Shown here: piece after piece, positions 11,268 to 56,219 of the stretch
Position numbering within the stretch: the stretch's first letter is position 1
Layout: each line of letters starts with the position of its first letter
Assembly (NCBI RefSeq): GCF_001469875.2
Contig: NZ_LOPW02000022.1
Span: 259,829 to 323,828, forward strand
Length of the DNA: 64,000 nt
From: Haloferax marisrubri
GTDB lineage: Archaea; Halobacteriota; Halobacteria; Halobacteriales; Haloferacaceae
Direction: 5' to 3'
The notes under the pieces: generated by a model
Databases searched by the model: none
Seen by the model: only the letters and a program-made list of their open reading frames with translations
What the model was told of the DNA's origin: nothing
Position numbers and translations under genes: made by a program

Positions 11268-11340
11268 GTCCTGATAGGGTAGTGGACTATCCTCCTGGCT
11301 TGCGGAGCCAGGGACCGGAGTTCAAATCTCCGTCAGGACG
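11268..11340 (+). tRNA. tRNA-Arg(GCG)
   Basis: Acceptor GTCCTGA pairs with TCAGGAC, anticodon stem CTGGC/GCCAG encloses TTGCGGA with anticodon GCG, T-arm is CCGGAGTTCAAATCTCCGT, and the discriminator is G. A TTAAGTAA box about 35 bases upstream is the likely TATA element. The 3' end, including the discriminator and nine trailer bases, is repeated downstream (see the tail feature). Confidence 0.95.
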
Positions 11341-11475
11341 TTTCTCTCTAGAACTACACGACGAGCGAAGCGAGGAGTCCGTTCCTCGTTGAAACTCCGT
11401 CTCGGAGATTTGAACAGGGAGCGACCGCAGGGAGCGAGTGAGTTCAAATCTCCGTCAGGACGTTTCTCTCTGGGA
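11318..11475 (+). repeat. tRNA-Arg tail with X-X'-X architecture
   Basis: The 32 bases at 11318-11349 (T-arm 3' half, acceptor 3' strand, discriminator and trailer) recur exactly at 11440-11471. Between them, CGGAGATTTGAAC at 11403-11415 is a perfect 13-base inverted copy of the T-arm segment at 11442-11454 and in the tRNA, and the preceding 30 bases (GTTC..GAAAC..CC) are an imperfect inverted copy of the trailer. The spacer 11354-11378 holds GACGAGCGAAGCGAGGAGTC. The arrangement is direct-inverted-direct, as behind four other tRNAs here. Confidence 0.85.
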
Positions 11476-11572
11476 CCGACCTTCGAGAGCCGTCTGTTCT
11501 CTCGATTCGGTTCACATTCTCTACGGAAACCTGAACGGCGAGCGACTTCGCTACGAGCGGGTTCAGCGCTCG

Positions 11573-12256
11573 TCAGGACTCGACGTGGGCGGCCAGTCCG
11601 AGGTCCAGTTCTTCGACCCCGTCGAGCACCATGTCGGCCATGCGGCGCGCCCCATGCTCGCTGAAGTGCGTGTCGTCGGCGATTCCGTCCGGATAGTTCG
11701 GGTGTTCGCCCGGTTCCAGATGGTTGTAGAGCGCCGTCGACGCTTCGGGACCGAGTTCCGCCAAGAGCGACCGCGTCCGCTCGTCCATGTCGATGAACGG
11801 AACGTCCCGGTCGCGCGCGACGGTTCTCGTCAGGTCGGCGTACTCGCGGTGGGTGTCTTTCGGGGCGCCGTCGTCGTCGAAGTGACGGCGCGCGATGGGC
11901 GTGAGCAACACGGGTGTCGCCCCTTGCTCGCGCGTCTCGCTGACGAACTTCCCGAGGTTATCGACGAACGCCGCCTCGGTCGTGTGCTGTTCTTTCGACG
12001 GCACCTCGTCGTTGTGGCCGAACTGGACGAACACGTAGTCGGTCTCGGTCAACTGGCGGACCACCGGACGCCAGCGGCCCTCCTCTAGAAACGTGCGGGT
12101 GCTGCGACCGTTTCGGGCGTGGTTCGCCACCGTAACGGCGTCGTCGAAGCGGTCGGCGAGGGGCATTCCCCACCCGGTCTCCGGGCGTTCGTTCGCCTCT
12201 TTATCCGCCATGGTGGAGTCCCCGACGAGATGGACGGTAATCGACTCGGACGACAT
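11573..12256 (-). CDS. SGNH/GDSL hydrolase, rhamnogalacturonan acetylesterase-like
   Basis: I start at the ATG at 12256 (227 residues), just before the first beta strand. Block I is GDSTMAD (Ser nucleophile near residue 12), block III is QFGHNDE near 85, and the C-terminal catalytic pair is in DDTHFSEHG (Asp and His near 205). The GDSTM and FGHND pattern is typical of rhamnogalacturonan acetylesterase-like carbohydrate esterases. There is no signal peptide, so it probably acts in the cytoplasm on an unknown acetyl ester, perhaps a sugar taken up from the environment. It converges on the tRNA-Arg tail. Confidence 0.85.
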   Translation of the reverse strand: MSSESITVHLVGDSTMADKEANERPETGWGMPLADRFDDAVTVANHARNGRSTRTFLEEGRWRPVVRQLTETDYVFVQFGHNDEVPSKEQHTTEAAFVDNLGKFVSETREQGATPVLLTPIARRHFDDDGAPKDTHREYADLTRTVARDRDVPFIDMDERTRSLLAELGPEASTALYNHLEPGEHPNYPDGIADDTHFSEHGARRMADMVLDGVEELDLGLAAHVES

Positions 12257-12431
12257 TTCGGTAGCGCTCGTCCGGGCGACGTATAGTGACACCGGTCGGG
12301 TCAATTGACGAGGAAAATCAGCTCCTAACCGTCGCTAACGGGAGCCTACCGGCGTCAAAATGCGAACCGCGAGGTCGGAGAAATCACGGAACGCCGAACG
12401 CTCTCGGCAGTCCTGACCGCGAAAAGCGAGT

Positions 12432-12656
12432 TTAGGCCTCGTCGTAGGGCGGTTCGAGGCTTGGCGACCGCTCGTCGTCCTCGCGGCGGCGGACCGACGA
12501 GGTCGTGCGCGACCGCTGTGGACGGGGACGAGGCGTCTCCTCGGACCGGGGCTTCGCGGCCCACGACCCGTGGCAGTCCCGACAGTAGTTGCCTTTGTAC
12601 GCCCGTGTGAACAGATACTGCTCACCGCAGCGGATACAAACCGGGGACTGGGTCAT
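12432..12656 (-). CDS. Small CxxC zinc finger protein
   Basis: This 74-residue protein has one zinc-ribbon-like unit at the N-terminus (CIRC at 7-10 and CRDC at 25-28) followed by an arginine/proline-rich tail. Haloarchaeal genomes encode many such very small zinc proteins of unknown function. The gene is divergent from the DUF309 gene. The shared intergenic region contains an inverted repeat ATGTG-CTAT-CACAT at 12693-12706, a possible operator. Confidence 0.7.
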   Translation of the reverse strand: MTQSPVCIRCGEQYLFTRAYKGNYCRDCHGSWAAKPRSEETPRPRPQRSRTTSSVRRREDDERSPSLEPPYDEA

Positions 12657-12692
12657 CGTTCGACACCTCGGACGAGGGTTTCGAGGGCATTC

Positions 12693-12706
12693 ATGTGCTA
12701 TCACAT
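12693..12706. promoter_or_regulatory. Inverted repeat ATGTG-CTAT-CACAT, possible operator
   Basis: Perfect 5-base arms lie between the divergent zinc-finger (start 12656) and DUF309 (start 12801) genes. A related palindrome, TATCGCATGTGATA, lies upstream of the zinc-ribbon gene at 60618-60752. A shared regulator of small zinc proteins is possible, but two sites are thin evidence. Confidence 0.35.
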
Positions 12707-12800
12707 CACATATGGTCCCGAGAGGGATAAGTATGCAAGGCCTACGGCTGGCGCACCCGCTCTTCGCGGACTCTTTACTCGTGGACGGCGAACGGTTTGC

Positions 12801-13412
12801 ATGGACGATTCGCTTCGCGCAGGCGTCGCCATCTACAACGCGGGCGCGTACCGAGCGGCCCACGGCGCGTGGGAGGCGAAGTGGCTGTCGCTCGACCGCG
12901 GGGGCGACGACGAGCGGTTCCTCCACGGGCTCATCCAGTTCACCGCGGCGGTCCACCACGCCCGCGACGGCAACGACTCGGGCGCGGTCGGCCTCGCTCA
13001 GAGTGCGCGGGAGTACCTCGACGGCCTCGCAGACGACTACCGCGGCGTCGACCTCGCCGAGGTGCGGGCGTTTCTCGCGCGCCTCGAAGCCGACCCCGAA
13101 GTCGCCGCCGACCCGCTGGCGCTCCGACTCGACGGGCGGGTCGTCACGTACGACGACCTCGATTTCGACGCGGTCGCCGTCGCGGCCGAGACGCTCGCGG
13201 AGGAACTGGACGGCTACGAGGAGGATGTCGTCGCCGACGCGGTCGGGTACGCCCGCGAGGAGGTCGCCGACGGGGCGCAGACGCAGTTCACCGCGATGGT
13301 GTTCGACTTCGTGCGAAACGAAGCCCAGCGCGGGCTGGTGTTTCAGCGGTTGAGCGAGCACGTCAGCCGGCGGCGACGGCGCGAAGACGACGTGAGCGAC
13401 CTGTTCGAGTGA
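12801..13412 (+). CDS. DUF309 family protein
   Basis: This 203-residue protein begins with the DUF309 helical hairpin (residues 5-75; IYNAGAYRAAHGAWEAKW, then FLHGLIQFTAAVHHARDGN), the signature of this family. The rest is helical and acidic, ending in an arginine-rich segment. DUF309 proteins are small cytoplasmic helical proteins without a settled function. The start at 12801 is used because the upstream extension crosses the divergent promoter region and has no domain. Confidence 0.85.
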   Translation: MDDSLRAGVAIYNAGAYRAAHGAWEAKWLSLDRGGDDERFLHGLIQFTAAVHHARDGNDSGAVGLAQSAREYLDGLADDYRGVDLAEVRAFLARLEADPEVAADPLALRLDGRVVTYDDLDFDAVAVAAETLAEELDGYEEDVVADAVGYAREEVADGAQTQFTAMVFDFVRNEAQRGLVFQRLSEHVSRRRRREDDVSDLFE

Positions 13413-13567
13413 GAAACGATGGTGGGCGTTTCGAACTCCTCAACAGGCGACGATTCGACTCTGTGCGGTCGATACAGGACGGAGACGAGGTTGCGATAGG
13501 GTTTCTCGGCGCGAGGGTGCGGGAATAAACAACGAGACGCTAGCAGCGGACTCACCCAATGAGTGGT

Positions 13568-13777
13568 TCAGAAATATGCCTCTTTGATTACGAGCAGTAG
13601 CCAGACTACCGGGGCGAGGGCAAGGAGCAGGCCGACGATGCCAATCAGATAGTTCCCCTCGACGAGTCCCCGAGCCCATCCCCTCCCGAGGTGAAACGTG
13701 AACAGGGCGAGGACGAGTAACACCACGGTGCGGAGCGAAACGCCCGAGCCCTCCGCACTAGAACCAGACGCGGACAT
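13568..13777 (-). CDS. Small membrane protein, two transmembrane segments
   Basis: This 69-residue protein has a polar N-terminus and hydrophobic segments at about 16-32 and 44-64 (LIGIVGLLLALAPVVWLLLV). It has no known domain. It stands alone between the DUF309 gene and azf, on the minus strand. Confidence 0.6.
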   Translation of the reverse strand: MSASGSSAEGSGVSLRTVVLLVLALFTFHLGRGWARGLVEGNYLIGIVGLLLALAPVVWLLLVIKEAYF

Positions 13778-13914
13778 ATCGTACTCGTTCTTGTCGGATT
13801 TCTATAAGTATTCTCCCGTCACGTTCGCACGCCTCCTGACCGGGCGTTTCACACGAGACTCATCTGAAGAATCGGTGTTCAACGGGGCCGAAAATCGAGG
13901 TTCCGACGACGCAA

Positions 13915-14703
13915 TCAGGCTTCGTCCAGCGGTTCGCCCTCGAAGGTGAACTCGGCGGAGTTGTCCTGCGGGTCGTAGCCGAGCACCGCGCGGGCGCGGT
14001 CGATGGAGTAGTACTTCCGGTCGTTGTCGGAGATGCCGTAGACGATTTCGTAGTCGTAGTCGGCCTCGATACAGCACTCGAAGAGGTGCGCGCAGTCGCG
14101 GTACGACAGCCACATGGCCTGCCCGCGCTCGTACTCCTTCGGCGGGTGGTGCTGGGTGAGGTTGCCGATGCGCACGTTCACGACCGAGATGTCGTGGTGG
14201 TCGTGGTAGTACCGGCCGAGCGTCTCGCCGGCGGCCTTGCTCACGCCGTAGAGGTTACTCGGGCGCGGCAGTTCCGTCCCGTCGAGTCGGAACTCGTGGT
14301 GCGGGCGGTACATGTCGGGCGTCCGGTCGGTGGTCTCGTACGCCCCGACGGCGTGGTTCGAGGAGGCGAACGCGAACTTCTCGACGCCCGCGTCGACCGC
14401 GGCGTCGAACATCTGTTGGGTGCCGTCGATGTTGTTCCGCAGGACGCTGTCCCACGGCGCTTCGGGGCGCGGGTCGCCCGCGAGGTGGATGACGGCCTCG
14501 ACGCCTTCCATGGCGTTTCGCACGGCGGTCTCGTCGGTGACGTCGGCGACGTACACCTCCGTGGGGTCGACCGAGTCGGGTATCTTCTCGTCGGAGAGTG
14601 GCTCGCGGTCCAGCAGCCGCCAGTCGTAGGCGTCGCCGATGTGCCCTAGTATCGCCTGGCCGACGCGCCCGCCAGCCCCCGTCAGCAAAACCGGCTGGTC
14701 CAT
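13915..14703 (-). CDS. azf: NAD-dependent glucose-6-phosphate dehydrogenase (Azf type)
   Basis: This extended short-chain dehydrogenase (262 residues) has the Rossmann motif TGAGGRVG at 8-15 and the catalytic YxxxK near residue 152 (YGVSKAAG), with SSNHAVG as the serine/threonine block. Length and sequence match the haloarchaeal Azf enzyme, which oxidises glucose 6-phosphate with NAD and feeds the oxidative pentose phosphate pathway; this enzyme was characterised in Haloferax volcanii. Related proteins are annotated as UDP-glucose 4-epimerase or uronate dehydrogenase, so the assignment rests on overall similarity as I remember it. The gene is divergent from the pterin aldolase gene. Confidence 0.85.
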   Translation of the reverse strand: MDQPVLLTGAGGRVGQAILGHIGDAYDWRLLDREPLSDEKIPDSVDPTEVYVADVTDETAVRNAMEGVEAVIHLAGDPRPEAPWDSVLRNNIDGTQQMFDAAVDAGVEKFAFASSNHAVGAYETTDRTPDMYRPHHEFRLDGTELPRPSNLYGVSKAAGETLGRYYHDHHDISVVNVRIGNLTQHHPPKEYERGQAMWLSYRDCAHLFECCIEADYDYEIVYGISDNDRKYYSIDRARAVLGYDPQDNSAEFTFEGEPLDEA

Positions 14704-14771
14704 TCGGTTCTACGTCCGGTAAGGGAGGCTAAGTAAGGACCGGTTCGCGCTCGCGCGACCCCTCAGACCGG

Positions 14772-14782
14772 CGAACTTTAAC
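14772..14782 (+). promoter_or_regulatory. BRE/TATA box of the pterin aldolase gene
   Basis: CGAACTTTAAC ends 22 bases before the ATG at 14805, the spacing of a leaderless haloarchaeal promoter. It supports the chosen start. Confidence 0.65.
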
Positions 14783-14804
14783 CCGGAGCGACGGAGTTTC
14801 CGGT

Positions 14805-15146
14805 ATGGTCACAGACCCGCAGACGGCCTGCTTCGAGGCGGGCATCAAGTTCGGGACGCTCTACCACCAGTTCGCCGGCACGCCGGTCTCGCCCGACAGC
14901 GCCCGGAGCCTCGAACGGGCCATGGCCGAGGCCATCGAGAACCAACCGTACTGCGAGTCGGTCTCCGTGCATATCCTCGACGACGCGCTGGAATCCGAAC
15001 TCTCCGAGTCGGCCGCCGACTACACGGAACTCACGGGCCGGTTCATGGAAGTCGAGATGGAAATCGACTACGAGGGCGTCCGCGTCCGGACGCGCATGGA
15101 GATGGAAGACGGCTACCCGCTGATGAAGCTCGTCTCGGTCGAATGA
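14805..15146 (+). CDS. mptD: MptD-type dihydroneopterin aldolase family protein
   Basis: This 113-residue protein matches the archaeal MptD family (DUF381), which cleaves dihydroneopterin to 6-hydroxymethyl-dihydropterin for folate or methanopterin synthesis. The family-like blocks are the N-terminal CFEAGIKFGTLYHQF with a conserved glutamate and the C-terminal YEGVRVRTRMEMEDGYPLMKL. The gene overlaps the NUDIX gene by four bases (ATGA), so the two are coupled. The partner might be the missing dihydroneopterin triphosphate phosphatase, but this is only a suggestion from context. Confidence 0.85.
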   Translation: MVTDPQTACFEAGIKFGTLYHQFAGTPVSPDSARSLERAMAEAIENQPYCESVSVHILDDALESELSESAADYTELTGRFMEVEMEIDYEGVRVRTRMEMEDGYPLMKLVSVE

Positions 15147-15613
15147 CTCGGCCGCGAAGCGCCGCCCGCGGACTCGTCGTCCGCGACGACGAACTCCTCA
15201 CGATTCAGTACCGAACCGACGGCGAGGACTGGTATGTCGCGCCCGGCGGCGGCCAACAGCGCGGCGAGTCGCTCGCGGAGACGGTCCGCCGGGAAGTGTA
15301 CGAGGAGACCGGCTACGAGGTCACCGTCGGGTCGCTCGCGTACGTCAGGGATTTCGTGCCCTCGACGCACTACGAAGACAGAGGCGACGACGACCATCAA
15401 GTGGACCACTTCTTCTGGTGCGAGCGGGTGAGCGACGAGCCGGACGACCCGACAGAGCGCGATTCGGTCCAGGTCGGCGTGCGGTGGCTCCCCCTCGACG
15501 AACTCGGGGAAGTCCGGTTCTTCCCCGGTCCGCTCGGCGACCGACTCAGCGATGGCGACCCCGACGAGCTGGGCGACGCACGCGACGGGGTCTACCTCGG
15601 CGACGTGGACTGA
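15143..15613 (+). CDS. NUDIX hydrolase
   Basis: This 156-residue protein has a complete NUDIX box at about 33-55: GGQQRGESLAETVRREVYEE followed by TG, matching Gx5Ex7REUxEExGU. These enzymes cleave a nucleoside diphosphate linked to another moiety, using Mg bound by the glutamates. The ATGA overlap with mptD means they are translated together. A role on dihydroneopterin triphosphate, as for bacterial FolQ, is possible. General housecleaning of oxidised nucleotides is the alternative. Confidence 0.9.
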   Translation: MTRPRSAARGLVVRDDELLTIQYRTDGEDWYVAPGGGQQRGESLAETVRREVYEETGYEVTVGSLAYVRDFVPSTHYEDRGDDDHQVDHFFWCERVSDEPDDPTERDSVQVGVRWLPLDELGEVRFFPGPLGDRLSDGDPDELGDARDGVYLGDVD

Positions 15614-15645
15614 GAATCCGCCCGCGACGACCGCGGAGTCGTTCG

Positions 15646-15677
15646 ATTTCACTTTCACTTTCGGGGTCGTTTTTAAA
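15646..15677 (+). promoter_or_regulatory. Promoter with TTTCACTTTCAC upstream element
   Basis: TTTTTAAA at 15670-15677 lies 25 bases before the ATG at 15702 and is a good TATA box. Directly upstream is TTTCACTTTCACT, which also precedes a second TATA box (50639-50644) upstream of ilvA. The start codon is therefore likely leaderless. Confidence 0.55.
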
Positions 15678-15701
15678 CCCCCACGCGCCGAACGTGTGAG
15701 C

Positions 15702-16148
15702 ATGAGTCAAAGCACGCTCGGCGACGACGACCTGTTCGGAGAGGCGGCGGCGGAGATGCGCGCCGACGTCGAGGAACACCTCGGCGAGGCCCGGTCGGCG
15801 CTGCCCGACCCGGACGACGTGTGGGACGCGGAGGCCGACAACGTCCTCGGCGTCCTCAACGGGCTCCGCTCCTCGCTCAACGTCGAGGGCGCGGCCGAGC
15901 ACGTCCGACAGGCCAAGAAGTGGTACGTCATCGGCCAGCGCGCCGAGGCGTTCGACGACCCGGAGGACCTCGAAACAGCCATCGAAGAGCTCGAAGAACT
16001 CATCGAGATGGTCGAGGAGGCCCACGAACTCGTCGGCGACCTCACCAACACGATGCCGCAGCTCCGCGGCGCGCTCACCGACGCCGCGGAGGCGGCGGAA
16101 GCGGCCGACGCGGACGACGACGAAGGCGAAGACGAAGAAGAGGAGTAA
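15702..16148 (+). CDS. Acidic helical protein, DUF5790-like
   Basis: This 148-residue protein opens with MSQSTLGDDDLFGEAAAEMR and is largely helical and strongly acidic, with a long heptad-like stretch (EDLETAIEELEELIEMVEEA, about 86-105) and a Glu/Asp tail. I believe it matches haloarchaeal DUF5790. The coiled-coil stretch suggests self-association. No enzymatic motif is visible. The start codon is fixed by the TATA box 25 bases upstream. Confidence 0.75.
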   Translation: MSQSTLGDDDLFGEAAAEMRADVEEHLGEARSALPDPDDVWDAEADNVLGVLNGLRSSLNVEGAAEHVRQAKKWYVIGQRAEAFDDPEDLETAIEELEELIEMVEEAHELVGDLTNTMPQLRGALTDAAEAAEAADADDDEGEDEEEE

Positions 16149-16194
16149 TCCGTAGACCGGCTCGCCGGTCCGGTCCTGTCCGGTCCGCGACCCG

Positions 16195-16917
16195 TCAGTC
16201 CAGTTGCCGGCGTTCGACCGCGTCGAGGAGCGACGCGAGCGAGTCGGCCGCGAGCGATTCCAGTTCCGCGCCGCGTTCGGCGTCACCCTCGGCGGGGTCG
16301 CCGACGACGCCGTTGCCGGTGAACTCGTCGGAGTCGTGCGCGAGGTTGACGCCCGAGACCCACTCACCCCAGCGGTCGGACCCCCCATCGCGGGCCTCGT
16401 CGATTCGGTCCTCGCGGACCAGTTCGGGGTGGGTGTGGCGGAGGAGCGCGGTTTCTAACGGGCCGCCGTGGCCCATGTCCGAGGAGTGGTCACCGACGGC
16501 GTCGAACCACGTGAACGTGACCGCGTAGACGTCGCCCGTCCGCGAGACGCGCCGACAGAGCTCCGCGAGCGCGTCGATGTTGCCGCCGTGGCCGTTGACG
16601 ACGACGACGCGGTCGAAGCCGTGGTGGGCGAGCGATTCGATAGTCTCGCGGACGTACGCGCGGAAGGTGTCCGGCGAGACCCAGAGCGTGCCGTCGAAGG
16701 CGCGGTGTTCCTCGGCGACGCCGACCGGGATGGTCGGGCCGACGACGACCTCGCCATCGAACGCCTCGGCACCCGCCTCGGCGACCGATTCAGCGTTGAG
16801 CGCGTCGGTGCCGAGCGGCGCGTGCGGGCCGTGCTGTTCCGTGCTTCCAACCGGGAGGAGCGCGAGGTCGGCGTCGAGGTCAGCGACCTCGGTCCAGGTG
16901 GCTTCGGAGAGTCGCAT
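16195..16917 (-). CDS. Creatininase family amidohydrolase (ArfB candidate)
   Basis: This 240-residue protein carries the creatininase metal site: GSTEQHGPHAPLGTD (about 23-37) with Glu, His and Asp ligands, NGHGGN near 109-114 and DMGHGGPLETA near 145. In archaea this family includes the 2-amino-5-formylamino-6-ribosylaminopyrimidinone 5'-phosphate deformylase ArfB of riboflavin/F420 synthesis. Other members are creatinine amidohydrolases and MftE peptidases. No riboflavin gene is adjacent, so the specific function is inference. Confidence 0.82.
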   Translation of the reverse strand: MRLSEATWTEVADLDADLALLPVGSTEQHGPHAPLGTDALNAESVAEAGAEAFDGEVVVGPTIPVGVAEEHRAFDGTLWVSPDTFRAYVRETIESLAHHGFDRVVVVNGHGGNIDALAELCRRVSRTGDVYAVTFTWFDAVGDHSSDMGHGGPLETALLRHTHPELVREDRIDEARDGGSDRWGEWVSGVNLAHDSDEFTGNGVVGDPAEGDAERGAELESLAADSLASLLDAVERRQLD

Positions 16918-16960
16918 GCGAAAAGAAGTGTCGTCCCCCTCCTTAGTGGTACGCGAAGCC

Positions 16961-18898: not shown

Positions 18899-18960
18899 GA
18901 CAACGGTTCAAGGGGCGCTCGCAGTAAAGTACTCGGGTGAAGGAGCGGGCCGCCGGTAGA

Positions 18961-20006: not shown

Positions 20007-20019
20007 GCGTCCGGGGCGC

Positions 20020-20289: not shown

Positions 20290-20329
20290 AGTGGGGTCAA
20301 CGGCCGCCGGCCCTTCGGGCGTTTCGCTT

Positions 20330-20920: not shown

Positions 20921-20994
20921 GGGCTCGTGGTCTAGTTGGTTATGACGCGGCCTTTACAAGGCTGAGGTCGGTGGTTCGAATCCGCCCGAGCCCA
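20921..20994 (+). tRNA. tRNA-Val(UAC)
   Basis: Acceptor GGGCTCG pairs with CGAGCCC, anticodon stem CGGCC/GGCTG encloses TTTACAA with anticodon TAC, T-arm is CGGTGGTTCGAATCCGCC, and the discriminator is A. It is followed by the longest X-X'-X tail of the window, with two extra T-arm copies. Confidence 0.95.
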
Positions 20995-21162
20995 CTTCTG
21001 CCGACACAACACGACGAGCGGAGCGAGGAGTCTATGTCGGCTGAATGGGCGACGTGGATTCGAACCCGACGAGACGAGCGTAGCGAGTCTCGGTCCGGTT
21101 CGAATCCGCCCGAAGCACCGACTGCTATGTGAGCGACCGAGTTCGAATCCGCCCGACTCACA
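20973..21162 (+). repeat. tRNA-Val tail with inverted and direct T-arm copies
   Basis: X begins at GGTTCGAATCC in the tRNA (20973). GCCGACA (21000-21006) pairs perfectly with TGTCGGC (21035-21041). TGGGC and GGATTCGAACC (21056-21066) continue the inverted copy X' back to the T-arm. The spacer contains CACGACGAGCGGAGCGAGGAGT, almost the same as behind tRNA-Arg. A perfect inner hairpin CGAGAC/GTCTCG (21070-21075 and 21087-21092) has the loop GAGCGTAGCGA. Direct copies of X follow at 21097-21112 and 21141-21155. Confidence 0.85.
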
Positions 21163-22639: not shown

Positions 22640-22713
22640 GCCGCCTTAGCTCAGACTGGGAGAGCACTCGACTGAAGATCGAGCTGTCCCCGGTTCAAAT
22701 CCGGGAGGCGGCA
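22640..22713 (+). tRNA. tRNA-Phe(GAA), copy 1
   Basis: Acceptor GCCGCCT pairs with AGGCGGC, anticodon stem CTCGA/TCGAG encloses CTGAAGA with anticodon GAA, T-arm is CCCCGGTTCAAATCCGGGA, and the discriminator is A. A second, identical gene lies at 24510-24583. CGAAAGTCTTTTTGATG upstream is the likely promoter. Confidence 0.95.
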
Positions 22714-22833
22714 TTTTCCTGCGAACTACCGAGGGAGCGTAGCGACCGAGTCGTGAGCAGTGAAAATGCAACCCGACCGGATTCTGAACCAGCGAGCAAC
22801 GCGCAGCGTTGCGAGTGAGGTTCAAATCCGGGA
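22692..22833 (+). repeat. tRNA-Phe copy 1 tail (X-X'-X)
   Basis: X runs from GGTTCAAATCC in the tRNA through the trailer. After a spacer with GGGAGCGTAGCGACCGAG comes the inverted copy at about 22751-22790, ending CCGGATTCTGAACC and containing GAAAATGC, which pairs with GCATTTTC of the trailer. A loop hairpin GCAACGC/GCGTTGC (22796-22802 and 22806-22812) follows, then the direct copy GGTTCAAATCCGGGA at 22819-22833. It is about 90% identical to the tail of copy 2. Confidence 0.85.
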
Positions 22834-24509: not shown

Positions 24510-24583
24510 GCCGCCTTAGCTCAGACTGGGAGAGCACTCGACTGAAGATCGAGCTGTCCCCGGTTCAAATCCGGGAGGCGGCA
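24510..24583 (+). tRNA. tRNA-Phe(GAA), copy 2
   Basis: All 74 bases are identical to copy 1 at 22640. The upstream flank differs (CGAAATGGTTTTTTCGC as the likely promoter), while the downstream about 120 bases are a diverged copy of the same tail. The duplication therefore included the tRNA and its tail. Confidence 0.95.
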
Positions 24584-24740
24584 TTTTCCTGCGAACTACC
24601 GAGAGAGCGAAGCGACCGAGTCGTGAGCAGTGAAACTGCGACCCGACCGGACTCTGAACCAGCGAGCAAATCTTCGATTTGCGAGTGAGGTTCAAATCCG
24701 GGAGGAAACCGTTCTCAGACTGAGTTCAAATCCGCGACAA
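24562..24740 (+). repeat. tRNA-Phe copy 2 tail (X-X'-X) with covarying hairpin
   Basis: The tail follows the plan of copy 1. Its spacer is GAGAGCGAAGCGACCGAG, X' lies at about 24621-24660 (ending CCGGACTCTGAACC), and the direct copy begins at 24689. The loop hairpin is GCAAATC/GATTTGC (24666-24672 and 24676-24682) where copy 1 has GCAACGC/GCGTTGC: three paired positions changed on both strands. One further T-arm copy (GAGTTCAAATCCGCGAC) appears at about 24722. Confidence 0.85.
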
Positions 24741-47872: not shown

Positions 47873-49012
47873 ATGTCAGGCGAACTGAAGCGGGGGCTGG
47901 AAGGTGTGCTGGTCACCGAATCGAAGCTCAGTTTCATCGACGGCGACGCGGGACAACTCGTTTACTGCGGGTACGATATCGAAGACCTCGCACGGGACGC
48001 AAGCTACGAGGAGGTACTCTACCTTCTGTGGCACGGGGAGCTTCCGACGAGCGAGGAACTCGACGCGTTCTCCGACGAACTCGCGGCCCACCGCGGCCTC
48101 GACGACGGCGTTCTCGACGTGACACGCGAACTCGCCGAGCAGGACGAGTCGCCGATGGCGGCGCTCCGAACGCTCGTCTCGTCGCTGTCGGCGTACGACG
48201 AAAACGCCGACTTCGAGGACGTGACCGACCGCGAGGTCAACCTCGAGAAGGCAAAGCGCATCACGGCGAAGATGCCGTCGGTGCTCGCGGCCTACGCTCG
48301 CTTCCGTCGCGGCGACGACTACGTCGAACCCGACGAGAGCCTGAATCACGCGGCGAACTTCCTCTACATGCTCAACGGCGAGGAGCCGAACGAGGTGCTC
48401 GCCGAGACGTTCGACATGGCGCTCGTGCTGCACGCCGACCACGGTCTGAACGCGTCCACGTTCTCCGCGATGGTCACGTCCTCGACGCTCTCTGACCTCT
48501 ACAGCGCGGTCACGTCCGCTATCGGCACGCTCTCGGGGTCGCTCCACGGCGGCGCGAACGCGAACGTCATGCGGATGCTGAAGGACGTCGACGACAGCGA
48601 CATGGACCCGACCGAGTGGGTCAAAGACGCCCTCGACCGCGGCGAGCGCGTCGCCGGGTTCGGTCACCGCGTCTACAACGTGAAGGACCCCCGCGCGAAG
48701 ATTCTCGGCGCGAAGTCCGAGGCGCTCGGCGAGGCCGCCGGCGACATGAAGTGGTACGAGATGTCGGTCGCCATCGAGGAGTACATCGGCGAGGAGAAGG
48801 GTCTCGCGCCGAACGTGGACTTCTACTCCGCCTCGACGTACTACCAGATGGGCATCCCCATCGACCTCTACACCCCCATCTTCGCCGTCTCGCGCGTCGG
48901 TGGCTGGATCGCGCACGTCCTCGAACAGTACGATGACAACCGCCTCATCCGCCCGCGCGCCCGCTACACCGGCGAGAAGGACCTCGACTTCCCGTCGGTC
49001 GACGAGCGATAG
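47873..49012 (+). CDS. citZ: Citrate synthase
   Basis: This 379-residue enzyme condenses acetyl-CoA and oxaloacetate. Family motifs are SFIDGDAGQLVYCGYDIEDL near the N-terminus, active-site histidine in LHADHGLNASTF near 192, SGSLHGGANANVM near 225 (second histidine), RVAGFGHRVY near 270 and the aspartate in NVDFYSAS near 322. It is the first step of the TCA cycle. The length equals that of the Haloferax volcanii enzyme as I remember it. It stands alone. Confidence 0.95.
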   Translation: MSGELKRGLEGVLVTESKLSFIDGDAGQLVYCGYDIEDLARDASYEEVLYLLWHGELPTSEELDAFSDELAAHRGLDDGVLDVTRELAEQDESPMAALRTLVSSLSAYDENADFEDVTDREVNLEKAKRITAKMPSVLAAYARFRRGDDYVEPDESLNHAANFLYMLNGEEPNEVLAETFDMALVLHADHGLNASTFSAMVTSSTLSDLYSAVTSAIGTLSGSLHGGANANVMRMLKDVDDSDMDPTEWVKDALDRGERVAGFGHRVYNVKDPRAKILGAKSEALGEAAGDMKWYEMSVAIEEYIGEEKGLAPNVDFYSASTYYQMGIPIDLYTPIFAVSRVGGWIAHVLEQYDDNRLIRPRARYTGEKDLDFPSVDER

Positions 49013-49096
49013 GCGACGAGTCGCACGCGACTTTTTTCCGTCCCGACGACCCGCCGGAGCGACGCGTCGTCCCCCGACCGCTCCCGCGTTCCCCGC

Positions 49097-50488: not shown

Positions 50489-50846
50489 GCCGAGGCCACG
50501 GACCTCGCGCAGTTGACGGTACCGGAAGCGGCGGTCCCGTCGGGCACGCTCGATGCGACACGCGAATGACGAGCGTCATACGCGGGTACCGGGTCGTCGC
50601 TGTCGTGCGGTTTCACTTTCACTCCGGGTGGGGGACGTTTATATGCACGGGGACCAGAAAGACAGTTGCACGTCACACGCGTGCATTCCCCCTTTCCCCT
50701 TTCACCGACCGGCGAGCGACGGCCACGGCGGCGCGGTGACGGCCCCGAATCCGGATTCTCAACCGACGACCATGAGGGTTGACATCACGCCCCTGATACC
50801 GATAGATTCCCGAACGATTAAACACAGACACGGGCGATTTCCGACC
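50489..50846. other. Divergent region upstream of threonine deaminase, two candidate promoters
   Basis: TTTCACTTTCACTCCGGGTG and TTTATATG (50639-50646) form a strong promoter about 200 bases before the ilvA start. GAACGATTAAACAC (50810-50823) is a second, proximal box giving a leaderless start at 50847. If the distal one is used, a leader of about 180 bases would be made, free of an obvious gene. It could carry a regulatory RNA or short peptide, for instance for isoleucine control, but I see no convincing structure. Confidence 0.5.
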
Positions 50847-52058
50847 ATGCTCACGCTTGACGACGTACGCGCCGCCCGCGAGCGCGTCGAAGCGGTCGCC
50901 CGACGGACACCGCTGGAGTACTCGCACACCTTCTCGGAGATGACGGGTGCCGAGGTGTACCTGAAGCTCGAAAACACCCAGCGCACGGGGTCGTTCAAGA
51001 TTCGCGGCGCGACGAACCGCATCACGACGCTCTCCGAGGAGGAGAAGGACGCGGGCGTCGTGACCGCGAGCGCCGGCAACCACGCCCAGGGCGTCGCGCT
51101 CGCGGCGTCGCGGGCGGGCGTGAACTCGAAAATCGTCATGCCCGAGTACGCGCCGATTTCCAAGGTGAAAGCGACCGAGCGCTACGGCGGCGACGTGGTG
51201 CTCTACGGCAACGACTACGACGAGGCGCAAGCGAAAGCCCACGAAATCGAGGCGGAGGAGGGCCGGACCTACGTCCACGCCTTCGACGACGAGTACGTCA
51301 TGGCCGGACAGGGAACTATCGGCCTCGAAATCGCGGAGGACTGCCCCGACCTCGACACCGTGGTCGTCCCCATCGGCGGCGGCGGCCTCATCTCCGGCAT
51401 CTCGACGGCCATCAAAGAGCAGTACCCCGACGCCCGCGTCATCGGCGTGCAGGCGGAACAGGCCTCCAGCGCCGCGGACTCGCTGAACAAGGGGTCGATT
51501 CAGACCATCGACGAGGTGGACACCATCGCCGACGGCATCGCCGTCCGCAGAATCGGCGACAAGCCCTTCGAGGTCATCCGCGAGCGCGTGGACGAGGTCG
51601 TCACCGTCTCCGACGAGGAAATCGCGGTGGCGCTCACCTACCTGCTCGAACGCTCGAAGACGCTGGTCGAGGGCGCGGGGGCCGTCGCGCTCGCGGCGCT
51701 GGTCTTCCAGAAGTTCGACTACGAGGAGGACGAGGTCGTCGTCCCCGCGCTGTGCGGCGGCAACATCGACATGAACACGCTGACGACCGTCGTGATGCGC
51801 GGGCTCGTCGAGACGGGTCGGTACCTCAAGATTCGGACCGAACTGAAGGACCGCCCCGGCTCGCTCGAACAGCTCATCGGGATTATCGCCGCGGAGAAGG
51901 CGAACATCTACGCCGTCAGGCACGACCGCACCTCTCGGAAAATCGCGCTGAACGCGACCGAGGTCGAAATCGACCTCGAAATGCGCGGGCCGAACCACGT
52001 CGATTCGCTCCTCGGCGAACTCCGCGACGCGGGCTACGACGTGGAAGTCCTCGACTGA
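50847..52058 (+). CDS. ilvA: Threonine ammonia-lyase (deaminase) with ACT domain
   Basis: The start at 50847 gives 403 residues. The PLP lysine lies in TGSFKIRGATNR near 50, the phosphate loop is SAGNHAQGVAL near 76 and the glycine-rich loop is PIGGGGLISGIS near 180. The C-terminal 80 residues (RTELKDRPGSLEQLIGIIAA, about 325-403) form an ACT domain, usually the site of allosteric control by isoleucine or valine. It makes 2-oxobutanoate for isoleucine synthesis or threonine breakdown. The upstream region could allow two transcription starts. Confidence 0.93.
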   Translation: MLTLDDVRAARERVEAVARRTPLEYSHTFSEMTGAEVYLKLENTQRTGSFKIRGATNRITTLSEEEKDAGVVTASAGNHAQGVALAASRAGVNSKIVMPEYAPISKVKATERYGGDVVLYGNDYDEAQAKAHEIEAEEGRTYVHAFDDEYVMAGQGTIGLEIAEDCPDLDTVVVPIGGGGLISGISTAIKEQYPDARVIGVQAEQASSAADSLNKGSIQTIDEVDTIADGIAVRRIGDKPFEVIRERVDEVVTVSDEEIAVALTYLLERSKTLVEGAGAVALAALVFQKFDYEEDEVVVPALCGGNIDMNTLTTVVMRGLVETGRYLKIRTELKDRPGSLEQLIGIIAAEKANIYAVRHDRTSRKIALNATEVEIDLEMRGPNHVDSLLGELRDAGYDVEVLD

Positions 52059-52106
52059 CCGCGTGGCCGGAGGCGGACTTCGAGTCCCGCGTTCGAAGCC
52101 GGGCGC

Positions 52107-52313
52107 TCAGGCGAGTCGCGTGAGGCCGATAAACACGAGGAGCGCGCCGATGCCTCGGTAGAGCCAGACGGGCGGGGCGGACTCCTCGGACCCGTCGGAA
52201 GACGAGCGGCGGAGGAACTCGAACCCGAACGCGTGGATTCGCGCCGGGAAGACGAGGTACGCGACGCCGAGCGCCACGACCCCGACGGAGCCGACCTGCC
52301 ACAGGAGGTTCAT
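52107..52313 (-). CDS. Small membrane protein
   Basis: This 68-residue protein has hydrophobic segments at about 4-22 and 48-66. AYLVFPARIHAFGFEFLRRSS lies between them, and the C-terminus ends FIGLTRLA. Similar short haloarchaeal membrane proteins are common. No function is known to me. Confidence 0.6.
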   Translation of the reverse strand: MNLLWQVGSVGVVALGVAYLVFPARIHAFGFEFLRRSSSDGSEESAPPVWLYRGIGALLVFIGLTRLA

Positions 52314-52531
52314 GTGCTAAATCCGAACTGTTCCGGCATATGCCCGTCGGTCGGGTCGGCGCGTCGGCGGCCGGAGTTCGCCCGAGACGGGCGCGTTGCG
52401 GGAGTGTGAGCACGTTTCTGGCTCCGGCGAACACTCGCCTTTTTACCCGGACGATTATGTCGAATTCGGGCGATAGACACCGTCTACGATGATTTTCACT
52501 TCGTGGGAAGCATGCGGGGTTTGACCCTCCC

Positions 52532-52552
52532 CCAATACGAAGGCCTTTAAGA
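52532..52552 (+). promoter_or_regulatory. Promoter of the cydAB genes
   Basis: CGAAGGCCTTTAAGAGG is a BRE/TATA candidate about 60-70 bases before the ATG at 52614, leaving a leader of about 40 bases. The intergenic region is C-rich between the box and the start. Confidence 0.45.
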
Positions 52553-52613
52553 GGGGACACCCCGCCTCCCGCTCCCCGGTTCGCCCCGTCGTCAGCGACC
52601 CCGCACCCCAACC

Positions 52614-54038
52614 ATGCTCGACCCAGTCATCGCCAGCCGGCTGCAGTTCGCGCTCACGACCATCGTCCACATCATCTTCCCCGTGATGAGCATGGGCCTC
52701 GCGCCCTTCCTCATCTACTTCACGTGGAAGGACATCCGCACCGACGACCCGGTGTACGAACAGCTCAGGCGGTTCTGGACGAAGATTTTCGCCGTCTCGT
52801 TCGTCGTCGGCACCGTGACCGGCATCGTCCTCGAATTCGAGTTCGGGACGAACTTCGCGGCGTTCTCGACGGCGGCCGGCGAACTGTTCGGCGGCCCGCT
52901 GGCCACCGAGGGGATGATGGCGTTCATGCTCGAAGCGACGTTCCTCGGGGTGTTCGTCTTCGGCCGCGAGAAGGTCTCCGACGCGCTCTACATGGTTTCG
53001 GCCGTCGCCGTCGGCCTCGGCACGTGGCTCTCGGCGGTGTGGATTCTCGTCGCCAACTCGTGGATGCAGACGCCGCGAGGGTACGAACTCGCGCGCGAGA
53101 GCGGCCAGCTCGTCGTCTCGCTCGTCGACCCCATCGCGGCGTACGCCAACCCGCGGTTTCCGTGGATGTTCGTCCACATGCAGAACGCCGCGGTGCTGTC
53201 GGTCGCGCTGTTCATGGCCGGCGTCGCGGCGTACCACGTCTGGCAGCGCGGCATCAGCGCCGAGGACGACCGCGAGGACGCGCGCTTCTGGCGGAAGACG
53301 CTCAAAATCGCGCTCGTCGTCCTGCTCGTGACCGCGCCGTTTCAGGCGATTCACGGCGACGCCTACGGCCGGCACGTCTACGAGACCCAGCCGCAGAAGT
53401 TCGCCGCCATGGAGGCCGTCTGGGAGACCGACAGCTACGTCCCCGAGTACATCTTCGCCATCCCGACGAGCCTCGAACACATCACCGACCCGCGCGCCAA
53501 GGAACTGCTCGGAATCGGGATTCCCGGCGGGGCGTCGTGGCTGGCGAGCGGGGGTGACCCCCAAGCCGAAATCACCGGCCTGAACGAGTTCGACACGGAG
53601 GCTCCGCCGGTCGCCATCGTCTTCTGGTCGTTCCGGCTCATGGTCGCCGCGGGGTTCTGGTTCATCCTGTTGGCCTTCTGGGCGGCCTATCGCTGGTGGA
53701 CCGACGACCTGTACGACGACGACCTGTTGCACAAGGCGTTCGTCGGGTCGTCGCTCCTCGGCATCTTCGCCGTCGAGGTCGGCTGGATAGTCACCGAGGT
53801 GGGACGACAGCCGTGGGTCATCCAAGGCGTCCTCAGGACGAGCGAGGGCGTCTCGCCGGGTCTCACCGGCTTCGAGGCGACGCTCACGCTCGTCGGCTTC
53901 GCCGTCGTGTACACCGGCCTGCTCGCGCTCTACACCTACGTGATTCGCCGCATCATCCGCGAGGGACCGCCGAGCATCGACGACACGGAGGCGGGTGCGG
54001 AGGCCGCCTCGCCCGCGGGGGTGACCGGCGATGACTGA
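52614..54038 (+). CDS. cydA: Cytochrome bd-type terminal oxidase subunit I
   Basis: This 474-residue membrane protein with about nine helices is the subunit carrying the haems of a bd-type quinol oxidase. RLQFALTTIVHIIFPVMSMG (axial histidine near 18), the GRQPW motif near 400 and the conserved EFGTNFAAFS region near 80 are characteristic. The Q-loop is short, as in archaeal and CIO-type enzymes. It reduces O2 with electrons from menaquinol and is usually expressed under low oxygen. The stop overlaps the start of cydB by eight bases. Confidence 0.93.
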   Translation: MLDPVIASRLQFALTTIVHIIFPVMSMGLAPFLIYFTWKDIRTDDPVYEQLRRFWTKIFAVSFVVGTVTGIVLEFEFGTNFAAFSTAAGELFGGPLATEGMMAFMLEATFLGVFVFGREKVSDALYMVSAVAVGLGTWLSAVWILVANSWMQTPRGYELARESGQLVVSLVDPIAAYANPRFPWMFVHMQNAAVLSVALFMAGVAAYHVWQRGISAEDDREDARFWRKTLKIALVVLLVTAPFQAIHGDAYGRHVYETQPQKFAAMEAVWETDSYVPEYIFAIPTSLEHITDPRAKELLGIGIPGGASWLASGGDPQAEITGLNEFDTEAPPVAIVFWSFRLMVAAGFWFILLAFWAAYRWWTDDLYDDDLLHKAFVGSSLLGIFAVEVGWIVTEVGRQPWVIQGVLRTSEGVSPGLTGFEATLTLVGFAVVYTGLLALYTYVIRRIIREGPPSIDDTEAGAEAASPAGVTGDD

Positions 54039-55029
54039 CTACGGCGCGTTCGCCACGGACCCGCTTTTCGGCCTGCCGCTGCAGGAGCTGTGGTTTGGGC
54101 TCGTCTTCTTCATCCTCGGGATGTTCCTGTTCCTCGACGGCTTCGACTTCGGCGTCGGGGCCATCTTCGCGACCCGCGACGACGACGAGGAACGCGAGAC
54201 GCTTCTGGCCGCCATCGGGCCTTTCTGGGACGGCAACGAGGTGTGGCTCGTCGTCTTCGGCGGCGCGCTGTTCGCCGCGTTCCCGGCGGTGTACGCGAAC
54301 CTCTTCAGCCGCCACTACCTGCTCATGTTCGCCATCCTCGGGGCGCTCATCCTCCGCGGACTCGCCCCCGAGATGTACGAACAGCGCCACGACGAGGCGT
54401 GGCAGACGTGGTGGGGGCGGGCGTTCGTCGTCGGCAGCGTGAGCACGCCCTTTTTGCTCGGCGTGTTCGCCGCCCACTGGCTCCTCGGCGTCGAGTCGCT
54501 CCTGTCGCTACCCGGTGTCGTCGTCGGCCTCGCCGTCGTCGCGCTCACCGTCGTCGCCGGGGTCGGCTTCCTCGCCATGAAGACCCGCGGGAGCCTCCAG
54601 CGCGACGTGGCCGACTACGGCCCGCGTGCGATAGCGGCCTATCTCGCGCTCGTCGTCGTCACGCTCGCCTACCTCGTCGCCGTCCGCCCCGACCTCGGCG
54701 TTCTCGCGCCGGTGCCGCTGGCGCTCGTCGCCGTCAGCCTCGCCGCCGCCGCGGGCTATCTGCTCGCGCTCCGCGACGGGCGCTACACGCTCGCGTTCGG
54801 GGCCGTGCCGGTCCTCGTGTTCGCGTTCGTCGCGCTCGTGGCGACGCTCATGTTCCCCCTGGCCGACCCCGCGACCGGGCTGACCGTCGCGGACGCCATC
54901 ATCTCCGTGCTCCCGCTGAACATCATGAGCGTCGCGTCGGCGCTCCTCCTGCCGCTCGTGTTCACCTACTTCGGCATCCTCTACTCGACGTTCAGCGGGC
55001 CCATCGAAACCGGTGAATCGTACTCCTGA
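54031..55029 (+). CDS. cydB: Cytochrome bd-type terminal oxidase subunit II
   Basis: This 332-residue partner of CydA has about eight transmembrane helices. It begins LPLQELWFGLVFFILGMFLF, followed by FLDGFDFGVGAIF and IGPFWDGNEVWLVVFGGALF, the family's most conserved segments. The 8-base overlap with cydA shows translational coupling. No CydX or CydDC gene follows, as is usual in archaea. Confidence 0.94.
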   Translation: MTDYGAFATDPLFGLPLQELWFGLVFFILGMFLFLDGFDFGVGAIFATRDDDEERETLLAAIGPFWDGNEVWLVVFGGALFAAFPAVYANLFSRHYLLMFAILGALILRGLAPEMYEQRHDEAWQTWWGRAFVVGSVSTPFLLGVFAAHWLLGVESLLSLPGVVVGLAVVALTVVAGVGFLAMKTRGSLQRDVADYGPRAIAAYLALVVVTLAYLVAVRPDLGVLAPVPLALVAVSLAAAAGYLLALRDGRYTLAFGAVPVLVFAFVALVATLMFPLADPATGLTVADAIISVLPLNIMSVASALLLPLVFTYFGILYSTFSGPIETGESYS

Positions 55030-55068
55030 CCGACTGCAATTCACCTCCCACTACCAACCAATCCACCC

Positions 55069-55275
55069 ATGGCTACGCTCCCCAACACCAAACCCACCGC
55101 CGAATCGCTCACCAAACCGCTGACCCTCCTCGGCCTCGGACTGGTCGTCGTCAGCGTCGCCGTCGCGGGGATCGCGCTCCGAGACGGCGACGTGGTCACC
55201 GCGCTCGGGATGGGGCTGTTGTTCGCCTCGGGCGTCCTCACGACCGGCATCAGCCTCTCCGGGAAGTCGGTGTAA
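55069..55275 (+). CDS. Small membrane protein behind cydAB
   Basis: This 68-residue protein has two hydrophobic segments (about 18-38 and 44-62; LLGLGLVVVSVAVAGIALRD). It lies 40 bases after cydB on the same strand. It could be a small oxidase-associated subunit, analogous to but unrelated in sequence to bacterial CydX. This is inference from position only. Confidence 0.6.
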   Translation: MATLPNTKPTAESLTKPLTLLGLGLVVVSVAVAGIALRDGDVVTALGMGLLFASGVLTTGISLSGKSV

Positions 55276-55359
55276 CCCGACGGACTGCGGCGGGGAGGTC
55301 CCGCCGTTGACCCGGTCGTTCCACCCTATTTTATCACGTCGTGGCGAAATCCACCGCGT

Positions 55360-55746
55360 ATGAAGCGCGTCATCGAAACCGACGAAGCGCCGGCCGCGGT
55401 CGGTGCGTACAGTCAGGCGACGACCAACGGCTCGCTGCTCTACACGGCGGGACAGATTCCGCTGACGCCGGACGGCGAACTCCTCGACGACGAGGACATC
55501 GCGACGCAGACGACGCAGTCGCTCGACAACGTGATGGCTATCCTCGCGGAGGCCGGCGCGGACGCGACCGACGTGCTGAAGACGACCGTGTTCCTCGCCG
55601 ACATCGACGACTTCGACGAGATGAACGAGACGTACGCGACCTACTTCGACGAGGAACCGCCGGCCCGCTCGGCGGTCGAGGTCGGCAATCTGCCGAAGGG
55701 CGTCGGCGTCGAAATCGAGGCCGTCGCCGTCGTCGACGAGGAGTAA
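55360..55746 (+). CDS. ridA: RidA family 2-iminopropanoate deaminase
   Basis: This 128-residue protein has the RidA signature: IETDEAPAAVGAYSQATTNG at the N-terminus, YTAGQIPLTPDGEL near 28-41, QTTQSLDNVMAILAEAGADA and the arginine-containing PPARSAVEVGNLPKGVGVEI at the trimer active site near 107. It hydrolyses reactive imines released by PLP enzymes such as threonine deaminase, whose gene is in this window. No operon with it exists. Confidence 0.93.
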   Translation: MKRVIETDEAPAAVGAYSQATTNGSLLYTAGQIPLTPDGELLDDEDIATQTTQSLDNVMAILAEAGADATDVLKTTVFLADIDDFDEMNETYATYFDEEPPARSAVEVGNLPKGVGVEIEAVAVVDEE

Positions 55747-55747
55747 C

Positions 55748-55954
55748 GTGGCCCGCCGCGTCCGGTCCGCGCTCGCGTGGGGCGCAGCGAGCCTCCTCCT
55801 CGTGGGCGTCCTCGCGCAGGGCGCGGTCCTCCTCGGACTCGGTATCGACGCGTCGTTCGGGGCGGTCGCCGCGGTGGCGGTCGCGTCCGGCGTCGCCGTC
55901 GCGTCCGTGACATACGTCATCGAACCACGACTCGAACGGAAAGGAAGGGCTTAA
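55748..55954 (+). CDS. Small membrane protein, likely co-transcribed with ridA
   Basis: From a GTG one base after the ridA stop, this is a 68-residue protein with an N-terminal arginine cluster and two hydrophobic segments (about 8-28 and 36-56). It ends with IEPRLERKGRA. The stop codon lies inside the TTAAAT box that probably serves as the tRNA-Ser promoter. Function is unknown. Confidence 0.65.
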   Translation: MARRVRSALAWGAASLLLVGVLAQGAVLLGLGIDASFGAVAAVAVASGVAVASVTYVIEPRLERKGRA

Positions 55955-55983
55955 ATTATCCAGGCGGGAACGTTGCGTTGTAA

Positions 55984-56064
55984 GCCAGGATGGCCGAGCG
56001 GTAAGGCGCACGCCTGGAAAGCGTGTTCCCTCTGGGATCGGGGGTTCAAATCCCTCTCCTGGCG
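55984..56064 (+). tRNA. tRNA-Ser(GGA)
   Basis: Acceptor GCCAGGA pairs with TCCTGGC, anticodon stem CACGC/GCGTG encloses CTGGAAA with anticodon GGA, a long variable arm is present, T-arm is GGGGGTTCAAATCCCTC, and the discriminator is G. GGGCTTAAATTATCC upstream is the promoter. A tail with inverted and direct copies follows. Confidence 0.94.
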
Positions 56065-56219
56065 CTTCTCTGGAAACTACTACTCCGAGCGATGCGTCTC
56101 GGCGCATCGCGGATAGCAGTTTTCGTGAAGCGTTTCTGAGAGGGGTTTGAACCAGGGAGCGAAGCGAACAGAGTGAGCAGAGTGACTGAGGTTCAAATCC
56201 CGCTCCTGGCGCTTCTCTG
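56043..56219 (+). repeat. tRNA-Ser tail with X-X'-X architecture
   Basis: The 30 bases at 56043-56072 (T-arm to trailer) recur at 56190-56219 with one change. GGGTTTGAACC (56143-56153), preceded by AGCAGTTTTCGTGAAGCG, is the inverted copy of the T-arm and trailer. At the turn, GCGATGCG/CGCATCGC (56089-56096 and 56103-56110) forms a perfect 8-bp hairpin. The loop between X' and X contains GGGAGCGAAGCGAACAGAG. The plan matches the Arg, Val and Phe tails. Confidence 0.85.

Follow-up and report, generated by a model that had tools for sequence, protein, structure and literature searches.

What are the tails that stand behind several tRNA genes of the haloarchaeon Haloferax marisrubri, each built from direct and inverted copies of the 3' part of the tRNA gene that it follows? 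We examined this question in a 64,000-nucleotide stretch of the genome (3.9 Mb in 26 contigs), namely positions 259,829 to 323,828 of contig NZ_LOPW02000022.1, referred to here as the window. Seven tRNA genes lie in the window and five of these, all on the plus strand, have such a tail: tRNA-Arg, tRNA-Val, two tRNA-Phe and tRNA-Ser. No such tail was found at the tRNA-Met and tRNA-Asn genes of the window. The protein encoded beside tRNA-Val shows 97-99% identity to its counterparts in several named Haloferax species. From the tRNA 3' end, a tail runs through the trailer and a hairpin-bearing stretch (P1), an inverted copy of the T-arm (X'), a loop that usually has a hairpin of its own and a direct copy of the tRNA 3' part (X), at times followed by another unit. 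The explanation that we favor, with a probability of about 0.45, is that each tail is an array of small units without coding content that entered at the T-loop, in which X'-loop-X would be a folded attachment site like the attC site of integrons. The plan and positions that an earlier note had described for the five tails hold, and the features are as follows.

11268-11340, plus strand: tRNA-Arg(gcg); the source of X is 11320-11340, from the T-loop to the 3' end
11341-11402, plus strand: Arg first unit, trailer and P1 with GAGCGAAGCGA at 11363-11373
11403-11415, plus strand: Arg X', inverted T-arm copy
11416-11441, plus strand: Arg loop between X' and X, AGGGAGCG...GAGTGA
11442-11462, plus strand: Arg direct X; the repeat runs on through the trailer to 11476, and the 122-bp unit is missing from H. 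prahovense (locus L058)
11530-11579, plus strand: older, decayed Arg X'-loop-X relic, read by eye (X' 11530-11536, X 11561-11579)
20921-20995, plus strand: tRNA-Val(tac)
20996-21046, plus strand: Val P1 stretch with GAGCGGAGCGA at 21016-21026
21047-21066, plus strand: Val X', a GGGCG box, a 4-nt insert and GGATTCGAACC
21067-21096, plus strand: Val loop with GAGCGTAGCGA at 21076-21086; a tandem-GA hairpin with a GTA triloop
21097-21113, plus strand: Val direct X, copy 1
21141-21156, plus strand: Val direct X, copy 2
22640-22713, plus strand: tRNA-Phe(gaa), copy 1
22777-22790, plus strand: X' of Phe 1, with one extra base
22819-22833, plus strand: direct X of Phe 1
24510-24583, plus strand: tRNA-Phe(gaa), copy 2
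24647-24660, plus strand: X' of Phe 2
24689-24703, plus strand: direct X of Phe 2, copy 1
24724-24733, plus strand: direct X of Phe 2, copy 2
55984-56065, plus strand: tRNA-Ser(gga)
56138-56153, plus strand: Ser X'
56154-56189, plus strand: Ser loop with GAGCGAAGCGA at 56157-56167
56190-56223, plus strand: Ser direct X and trailer, 94% identical to 56043-56076

A repeat finder recovered the direct repeats of Arg (37 nt, 95% identity) and Ser (34 nt, 94%), together with inverted arms for Arg (25 nt, 80%), Ser (16 nt, 94%) and Val (11 nt, exact). The Phe X' carries one extra base (CCGGATTCTGAACC) and was therefore not listed by this ungapped program. At the gathering score of Rfam 15, the matches in the window were the seven tRNAs only, and the tails matched none of its RNA families. 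The earlier note had placed the motif GAGCGNAGCGA in the spacer of every tail. It does recur, with six copies in the window that all lie inside these tails, but the Ser copy is in the loop and Val has copies in both spacer and loop. The motif is nearly mirror-symmetric and includes GCGNAGC. Its 65 sites across the host genome (G000), some of them outside tRNA tails, rule it out as a tRNA-exclusive motif and mark it as a general motif of the genome; the reversed form, which overlaps GAGCGNAGCGA, has 88.

Copies of the tRNA 3' end are more frequent downstream of tRNA genes than expected by chance. We compared the last 27 nt of 49 tRNAs of the host genome (the Rfam list, from which at least tRNA-Pro(cgg) is missing) with the 400 nt downstream, using cut-off scores of at least 13 for direct and at least 11 for inverted copies. 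A direct copy was found behind 27 of the 49 tRNAs, an inverted copy behind 19 and both behind 18. In 60 dinucleotide shuffles per tail, the direct score reached at most 12. Inverted scores peaked at 13 for one tail and at 12 for four, and passing the inverted cut-off therefore does not by itself exclude chance for each tail. Among the 31 tRNAs with 400 nt on both sides, there were no copies of either kind upstream (0/31 and 0/31), compared with 20 direct and 15 inverted copies downstream. When tails were swapped between tRNAs, the own tail scored above every swapped one for 19/49 direct but only 5/49 inverted copies. In G279, a genome from another family for which 37 of 42 Rfam tRNAs were used, direct copies stood behind 19/37 tRNAs and inverted copies behind 17/37, with 16 direct and 6 inverted copies scoring above all swaps. 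Shuffled sequence, the upstream side and other genomes all support the excess, and the lack of excess in other genomes that the earlier note had named as a refutation was not seen.

Over loci of the host genome and related loci, we collected 178 direct copies behind 110 of 159 tRNA calls, the latter including 110 aragorn hits from 42 loci, a few of which are likely to be false tRNAs within genes. The median unit length was 118.5 nt (interquartile range 104-128; 178 copies). In an alignment test, the score of X' against its own tRNA exceeded the average over swapped isotypes in 158/178 units and in 21/22 isotypes, and it exceeded every swap in only 66/178 units; mean scores were 9.8 (own), 7.6 (swapped) and 5.8 (shuffled). 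The exceptions were Asp, where the own score was below the swap, and Phe, where 33% of swaps equalled or exceeded it. An earlier test with a 7-nt box, taking the best of all positions, was weak (at least 6 matches in a fraction of 0.14 for own and 0.06 for swapped tRNAs; the own score topped every swap in 6.7% of 178) and was judged badly built, and the alignment test was used instead. These results support the proposal of a recurring process that links every tail to the tRNA that it follows. The statement that the inverted match extends into the acceptor and trailer in each case goes too far: X' chiefly complements the T-loop and T-stem, pairing drops past position 65 (149/178 units scoring at least 8), and for Arg the exact match stops at the T-stem with an 80% match beyond.

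The tails are real, wider in occurrence than first noted and restricted to one clade within the phylum. We ran the pattern GATTYGAA-N22..52-GTTCRAATC over 294 genomes of the phylum; palindromic sites score on both strands. Because some tRNA-Ser bodies fit X'-loop-X (for example C22:90101 of the host genome), single hits were not used as evidence and at least three strand hits were required. In Halobacteriales, which we take to be the order of the window, 52/53 genomes matched and 49/53 had at least three strand hits, with up to 33. Outside the order, 8/241 genomes matched, none of the 241 had three hits and the highest count was two. The reversed pattern gave one match in each of four genomes. 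In G279 and G060, 42/44 pattern sites lay 34-551 nt behind a tRNA on the same strand, involving 29/84 tRNAs. The remaining two sites and one site of the host genome adjoin a tRNA-Trp-like 3' end and a tRNA 3'-end remnant (both read by eye) and tRNA-Pro(cgg).

Several observations suggest that the units were inserted. The direct copies begin sharply at G53/T54 in the T-loop and finish at the tRNA end: the copies match the tRNA with an identity of 0.99 at position 53, which declines to 0.74 at 52 and to 0.36 at 51, and identity drops again after 73 (155/178 copies, the profile leaving out the 23 in which TTC does not stand where expected). The tRNA-Arg locus of H. prahovense consists of tRNA and trailer alone, an empty site, where the window and three other species have an extra 122-bp unit; a different unit occupies this place in H. 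gibbonsii and H. massiliensis. Within 500 nt of this tRNA, a direct copy is missing from H. larsenii, H. elongans and H. mucosum, and H. marinum has an inverted copy only. The copies closest to the tRNA are best preserved, since mean identity of X by rank from the tRNA is 0.875 (110 copies), 0.860 (48), 0.786 (17) and 0.793 (3), and in 48 arrays the first copy was better than the last in 33, worse in 8 and tied in 7.

Unit contents and orders vary between species. Typing by eye of the tRNA-Val tails in 15 Haloferax genomes gave no fewer than five P1 types and four loop types, which are combined and ordered in many ways, including V2 followed by V3 in one species and V3 followed by V2 in two. 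P1 families are mostly kept to one tRNA (321 same-isotype and 16 different-isotype pairs, as raw counts not normalised for possible pairs), and loop-end types are common to different tRNAs. Four tRNA-Phe relics have no intact T-arm (three of the seven rows of this set were dropped, being cut by locus ends); in two of them (L079 near 16614 and L081 near 11940, reverse strand, reversed coordinates), a hairpin interrupts the T-arm at the T-loop and is followed by X. In one tRNA-Phe tail (L059), part of a Val unit seems, by eye, to be inverted inside, which would be an exchange between tails of different tRNAs. In addition, a tRNA-Val array of the same genus (L330, 645-2703) holds between its X copies a stretch of about 2.06 kb with 43% GC and two open reading frames (ORFs). 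Their similarities, weakly DUF4145/AriA-like and weakly PIN-like, are below cut-offs, and neither of the two ORFs is a recombinase. This stretch is possibly a gene-bearing unit.

The copies also follow variants of the local tRNA. Among tRNA-Val orthologues that vary in the T-loop and T-stem, X copies carried the local variant in 32/34 cases for GAATCC, 15/15 for GAACCC, 5/5 for GATTCC, 2/4 for GACTCC and 1/2 for AAATCC; the other two GACTCC copies ('AAATCC') are the neighboring tRNA-Phe and its tail in L078. X' had the local variant in 14/20 cases (GAATCC 7/9, GAACCC 3/6, GATTCC 2/2, GACTCC 2/2 and AAATCC 0/1, the sole AAATCC X', GGATTCTGAACC, having been put under GAATCC by the pattern). H. 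larsenii and H. elongans each have a pair of tRNA-Phe genes that lie about 2 kb from one another and have different T-stems. Read by eye, the X copies of each tail follow their own gene, and the first X' behind the variant tRNA-Phe retains the sister form in both species. As far as these cases go, X copies follow the local tRNA and X' does so less strictly. This pattern would be expected of a unit brought from elsewhere, and equally of gene conversion of X.

The hairpins within the units have features that suit DNA. Tandem G-A pairs are stable, cGNAg and cGNNAg loops beyond GCGAAGC are stable in DNA, and the wider GNA/GNNA class favors DNA, while RNA prefers GNRA and UNCG loops. In 146 unique unit bodies of 60-170 nt, an internal tandem GA/GA hairpin was present in 113 (175 hairpins), compared with a maximum of 9 bodies in 20 dinucleotide shuffles. 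The other strand's form, TC/TC, was found in 5 bodies and five further mismatch types in 0-1. The tips of the tandem-GA hairpins are GNA in 36%, GNYA in 8.6%, GNRA in 1.1% and UNCG in none, and GNA makes up 12.8% of plain Watson-Crick hairpins compared with 2.4% after shuffling. When folded as single-stranded DNA (ssDNA), the tRNA strand was more stable in 110/146 bodies and the other strand in 35/146. Folded singly, the Arg unit does only slightly better than shuffles, with z values of -1.98 and -1.64 for its strands as DNA and of -2.97 for tRNA and tail as RNA. Stems are almost wholly Watson-Crick, with 3 G-T and 9 other mismatches in 580 pairs, although the scan seeds on Watson-Crick stems. 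In 110 unique X'/X pairs scoring at least 7, the boxes pair and the tips vary; part of them have extra or missing bases, and 30/110 are perfect over the aligned span. GCGAAGC is described as an extraordinarily stable DNA hairpin in PMC6582339. Hairpins of the tRNA strand with tandem G-A pairs and GNA loops suit single-stranded DNA.

To account for these features, we propose that a unit of about 118 nt, consisting of the tRNA 3' part from T54, the trailer hairpin P1, X' and the loop, would enter the tRNA gene at a single point in the T-loop, G53|T54. The unit's own copy would restore the tRNA 3' end and the old 3' end would be pushed downstream, leaving the direct X copies, such that the newest unit adjoins the tRNA. 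X' and X would pair on the tRNA strand, and the resulting hairpin would be the attachment site of a folded single-stranded unit. A tyrosine-type recombinase, acting in trans, would recognise the folded X'/X hairpin of the single-stranded or extruded unit and join it at the T-arm, which is also a hairpin. As half of the attachment site, X' must on this model match the local T-arm. Unit anatomy, the fixed edge, one empty and filled site, contents and orders that vary by species, polarity of preservation, local tRNA tracking and hairpins on the tRNA strand that contain tandem G-A pairs and GNA loops can be read from the sequences. From these we infer active mobility, an order of insertion, a single-stranded step, and a recombinase and its identity.

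A number of observations weigh against the insertion of folded units. Direct copies are missing from 22/49 tRNAs of the host genome, strict scoring puts an inverted copy before only 83/178 direct copies, and the sequences are related, so the counts are not independent. The empty site was aligned at one locus, and repeat-mediated deletion could also produce it. Hairpins of the AG/AG type occur in 21 unit bodies, plain Watson-Crick hairpins are no more common than after shuffling (195, with a shuffled mean of 197) and the window's own tails are weak, with one hairpin in a stricter tandem-GA scan. Wobble asymmetry picks no strand (12/545 and 10/701; 3 and 1 in a second count), and X'/X differs from the center of attC in that its T-loop part is usually paired. 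Neither a recombinase nor a circular form was found in the assembled sequence searched, and the Arg tail, the sole plasmid query, had no plasmid match. The viral scan gave at least 120 stretches, of which 21 among the matches listed, in loci above 50% GC, were examined; one was a haloarchaeal-looking contig, with its own tRNA, and many of the 21 appeared by eye to be like phage tRNA-Ser.

A Pfam scan found no integrase among the 19 window ORFs near the five tails. Next to tRNA-Met, three ORFs in a row on the minus strand (689-1738, 2594-3565 and 4501-5331) each match Phage_integrase and look like what we take to be a recombinase trio, RIT-like. The tyrosine recombinase at this site (P0001) matched 22/40 genomes at E<=0.001, with strong matches only in its own genome and G306, and this patchiness led us to reject it as the clade-wide enzyme, which also counts against our proposal. 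Elsewhere in the window, a 724-aa frame on the minus strand (8221-10395) has an archaeal histone domain near its C-terminus.

The tails could instead be ordinary att scars, left where viruses or plasmids integrated at tRNA 3' ends and were later deleted, with X as old att and X' derived from attP arms. We consider this unlikely, although X copies span the extent of tRNA att sites and the 2.06-kb stretch with its two ORFs lies between X copies. In addition, PMC7921747 reports tRNA-integrated elements in H. gibbonsii LR2-5 together with 11 partial tRNAs, several beside a full tRNA, and these partial tRNAs may be X copies seen as remnants. However, the narrow unit size, the recurring two-hairpin plan and the shared loop-end families argue against scars, and random deletions are not expected to give the unit plan or an own-specific X' in most units. 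The earlier note had named independent att remnants as a refutation of its reading; X is att-like, but the recurring inverted arm and the small non-coding units are unlike ordinary att scars.

A functional RNA device, in which the tail is transcribed with the tRNA, its hairpins act in termination, in 3' processing or in the control of folding and X pairing is under selection, is in our judgement rather improbable. The hairpins do lie on the tRNA strand, one P1 family of seven sequences has changes on both sides in 2/11 pairs, and the T-arm pairs into the tail in 8/28 RNA folds of own tRNAs with their first unit; hairpins are also described upstream of 503 H. volcanii termination sites in PMC7237163. 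On the other hand, many tRNAs and some orthologues are tail-less, unit content and order vary by species, and the tip loops are of the DNA type. In the RNA fold of tRNA-Arg and its tail, the downstream X takes up X' and the cloverleaf stays intact. The idea that X' competes with the cloverleaf has the 8/28 folds in its favor and the Arg fold against it. Less probable again, and a poorer fit to the data, is that a replication block in the near-palindromic T-arm leads to template switching, which would write inverted and direct X in place. It would explain why copies agree with the local tRNA, also where two paralogues lie 2 kb apart, and the near-complete Watson-Crick pairing is what copying would yield. 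Nevertheless, loop ends come from families shared between tRNAs, whole units differ and are gained, reordered and recombined between species with one fixed 5' edge, and T-arms are universal, yet none of the 241 genomes of the phylum searched outside the order exceeded two strand hits.

The insertion of folded units has its nearest working parallel, by analogy, in the attC sites of integrons. CTX-phi type attP, which is used by Xer recombinases, likewise relies on a single strand that folds into a recombination site; the tails differ in having no phage genes and a tRNA gene rather than dif as target. Features given for attC in PMC2727003 are a single-strand hairpin, paired boxes, extrahelical bases, an unpaired central spacer and a variable tip. 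As in integrons, the units form an array and the copies beside the anchor are the best preserved; the sites between units may be able to fold into imperfect hairpins whose tip varies, and some units have bases added to or missing from one arm. In contrast to integrons, no integrase gene was seen by the tails (in Pfam; attI was not sought), and the units are non-coding and about 118 nt long rather than gene cassettes, apart from the one X-flanked stretch of L330. The anchor is a tRNA gene, the letters of the site are those of the local T-arm, the strand that folds better is that of the tRNA and the X'/X center is usually paired. Membership among integrons fails on the integrase and gene cargo.

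Integrative elements that target tRNA genes through archaeal tyrosine recombinases also leave direct repeats of the tRNA 3' part around the insert and keep the tRNA intact. The tail units differ from these in being about 118 nt long, gene-less and tandem, mostly with an inverted T-arm copy, and they have neither an integrase gene of their own nor kb-size cargo. MITEs, PATEs and SMRs of Haloquadratum, described in PMC3119063, are likewise short, non-coding, palindromic and haloarchaeal. Unlike these, the tails have a fixed T-loop target, direct repeats of the target 3' end and letters matched to the target, and they are not dispersed, given that 42/44 sites lie behind a tRNA and the other two by tRNA 3'-end sequences. 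No paper describing the inverted copy or the arrays was recognised in our searches of the open-licence literature.

A broader possibility, which we put forward only tentatively, is an integron-like system of the whole order that works on tRNA genes, with a recombinase in trans, folded ssDNA units at the T-loop, a self-matching T-arm hairpin and perhaps gene uptake, as in L330. The question is directly testable in Haloferax volcanii. If the proposal is true, most haloarchaeal genomes would hold many small insertion arrays that have gone unnoticed or have been read as tRNA remnants, and another folded-ssDNA recombination site would stand beside that of integrons. tRNA genes would be a natural cassette platform in archaea, and this would bear on the attraction of integrases to tRNA genes, the evolution of tRNA trailers and the annotation of 'partial tRNAs'.

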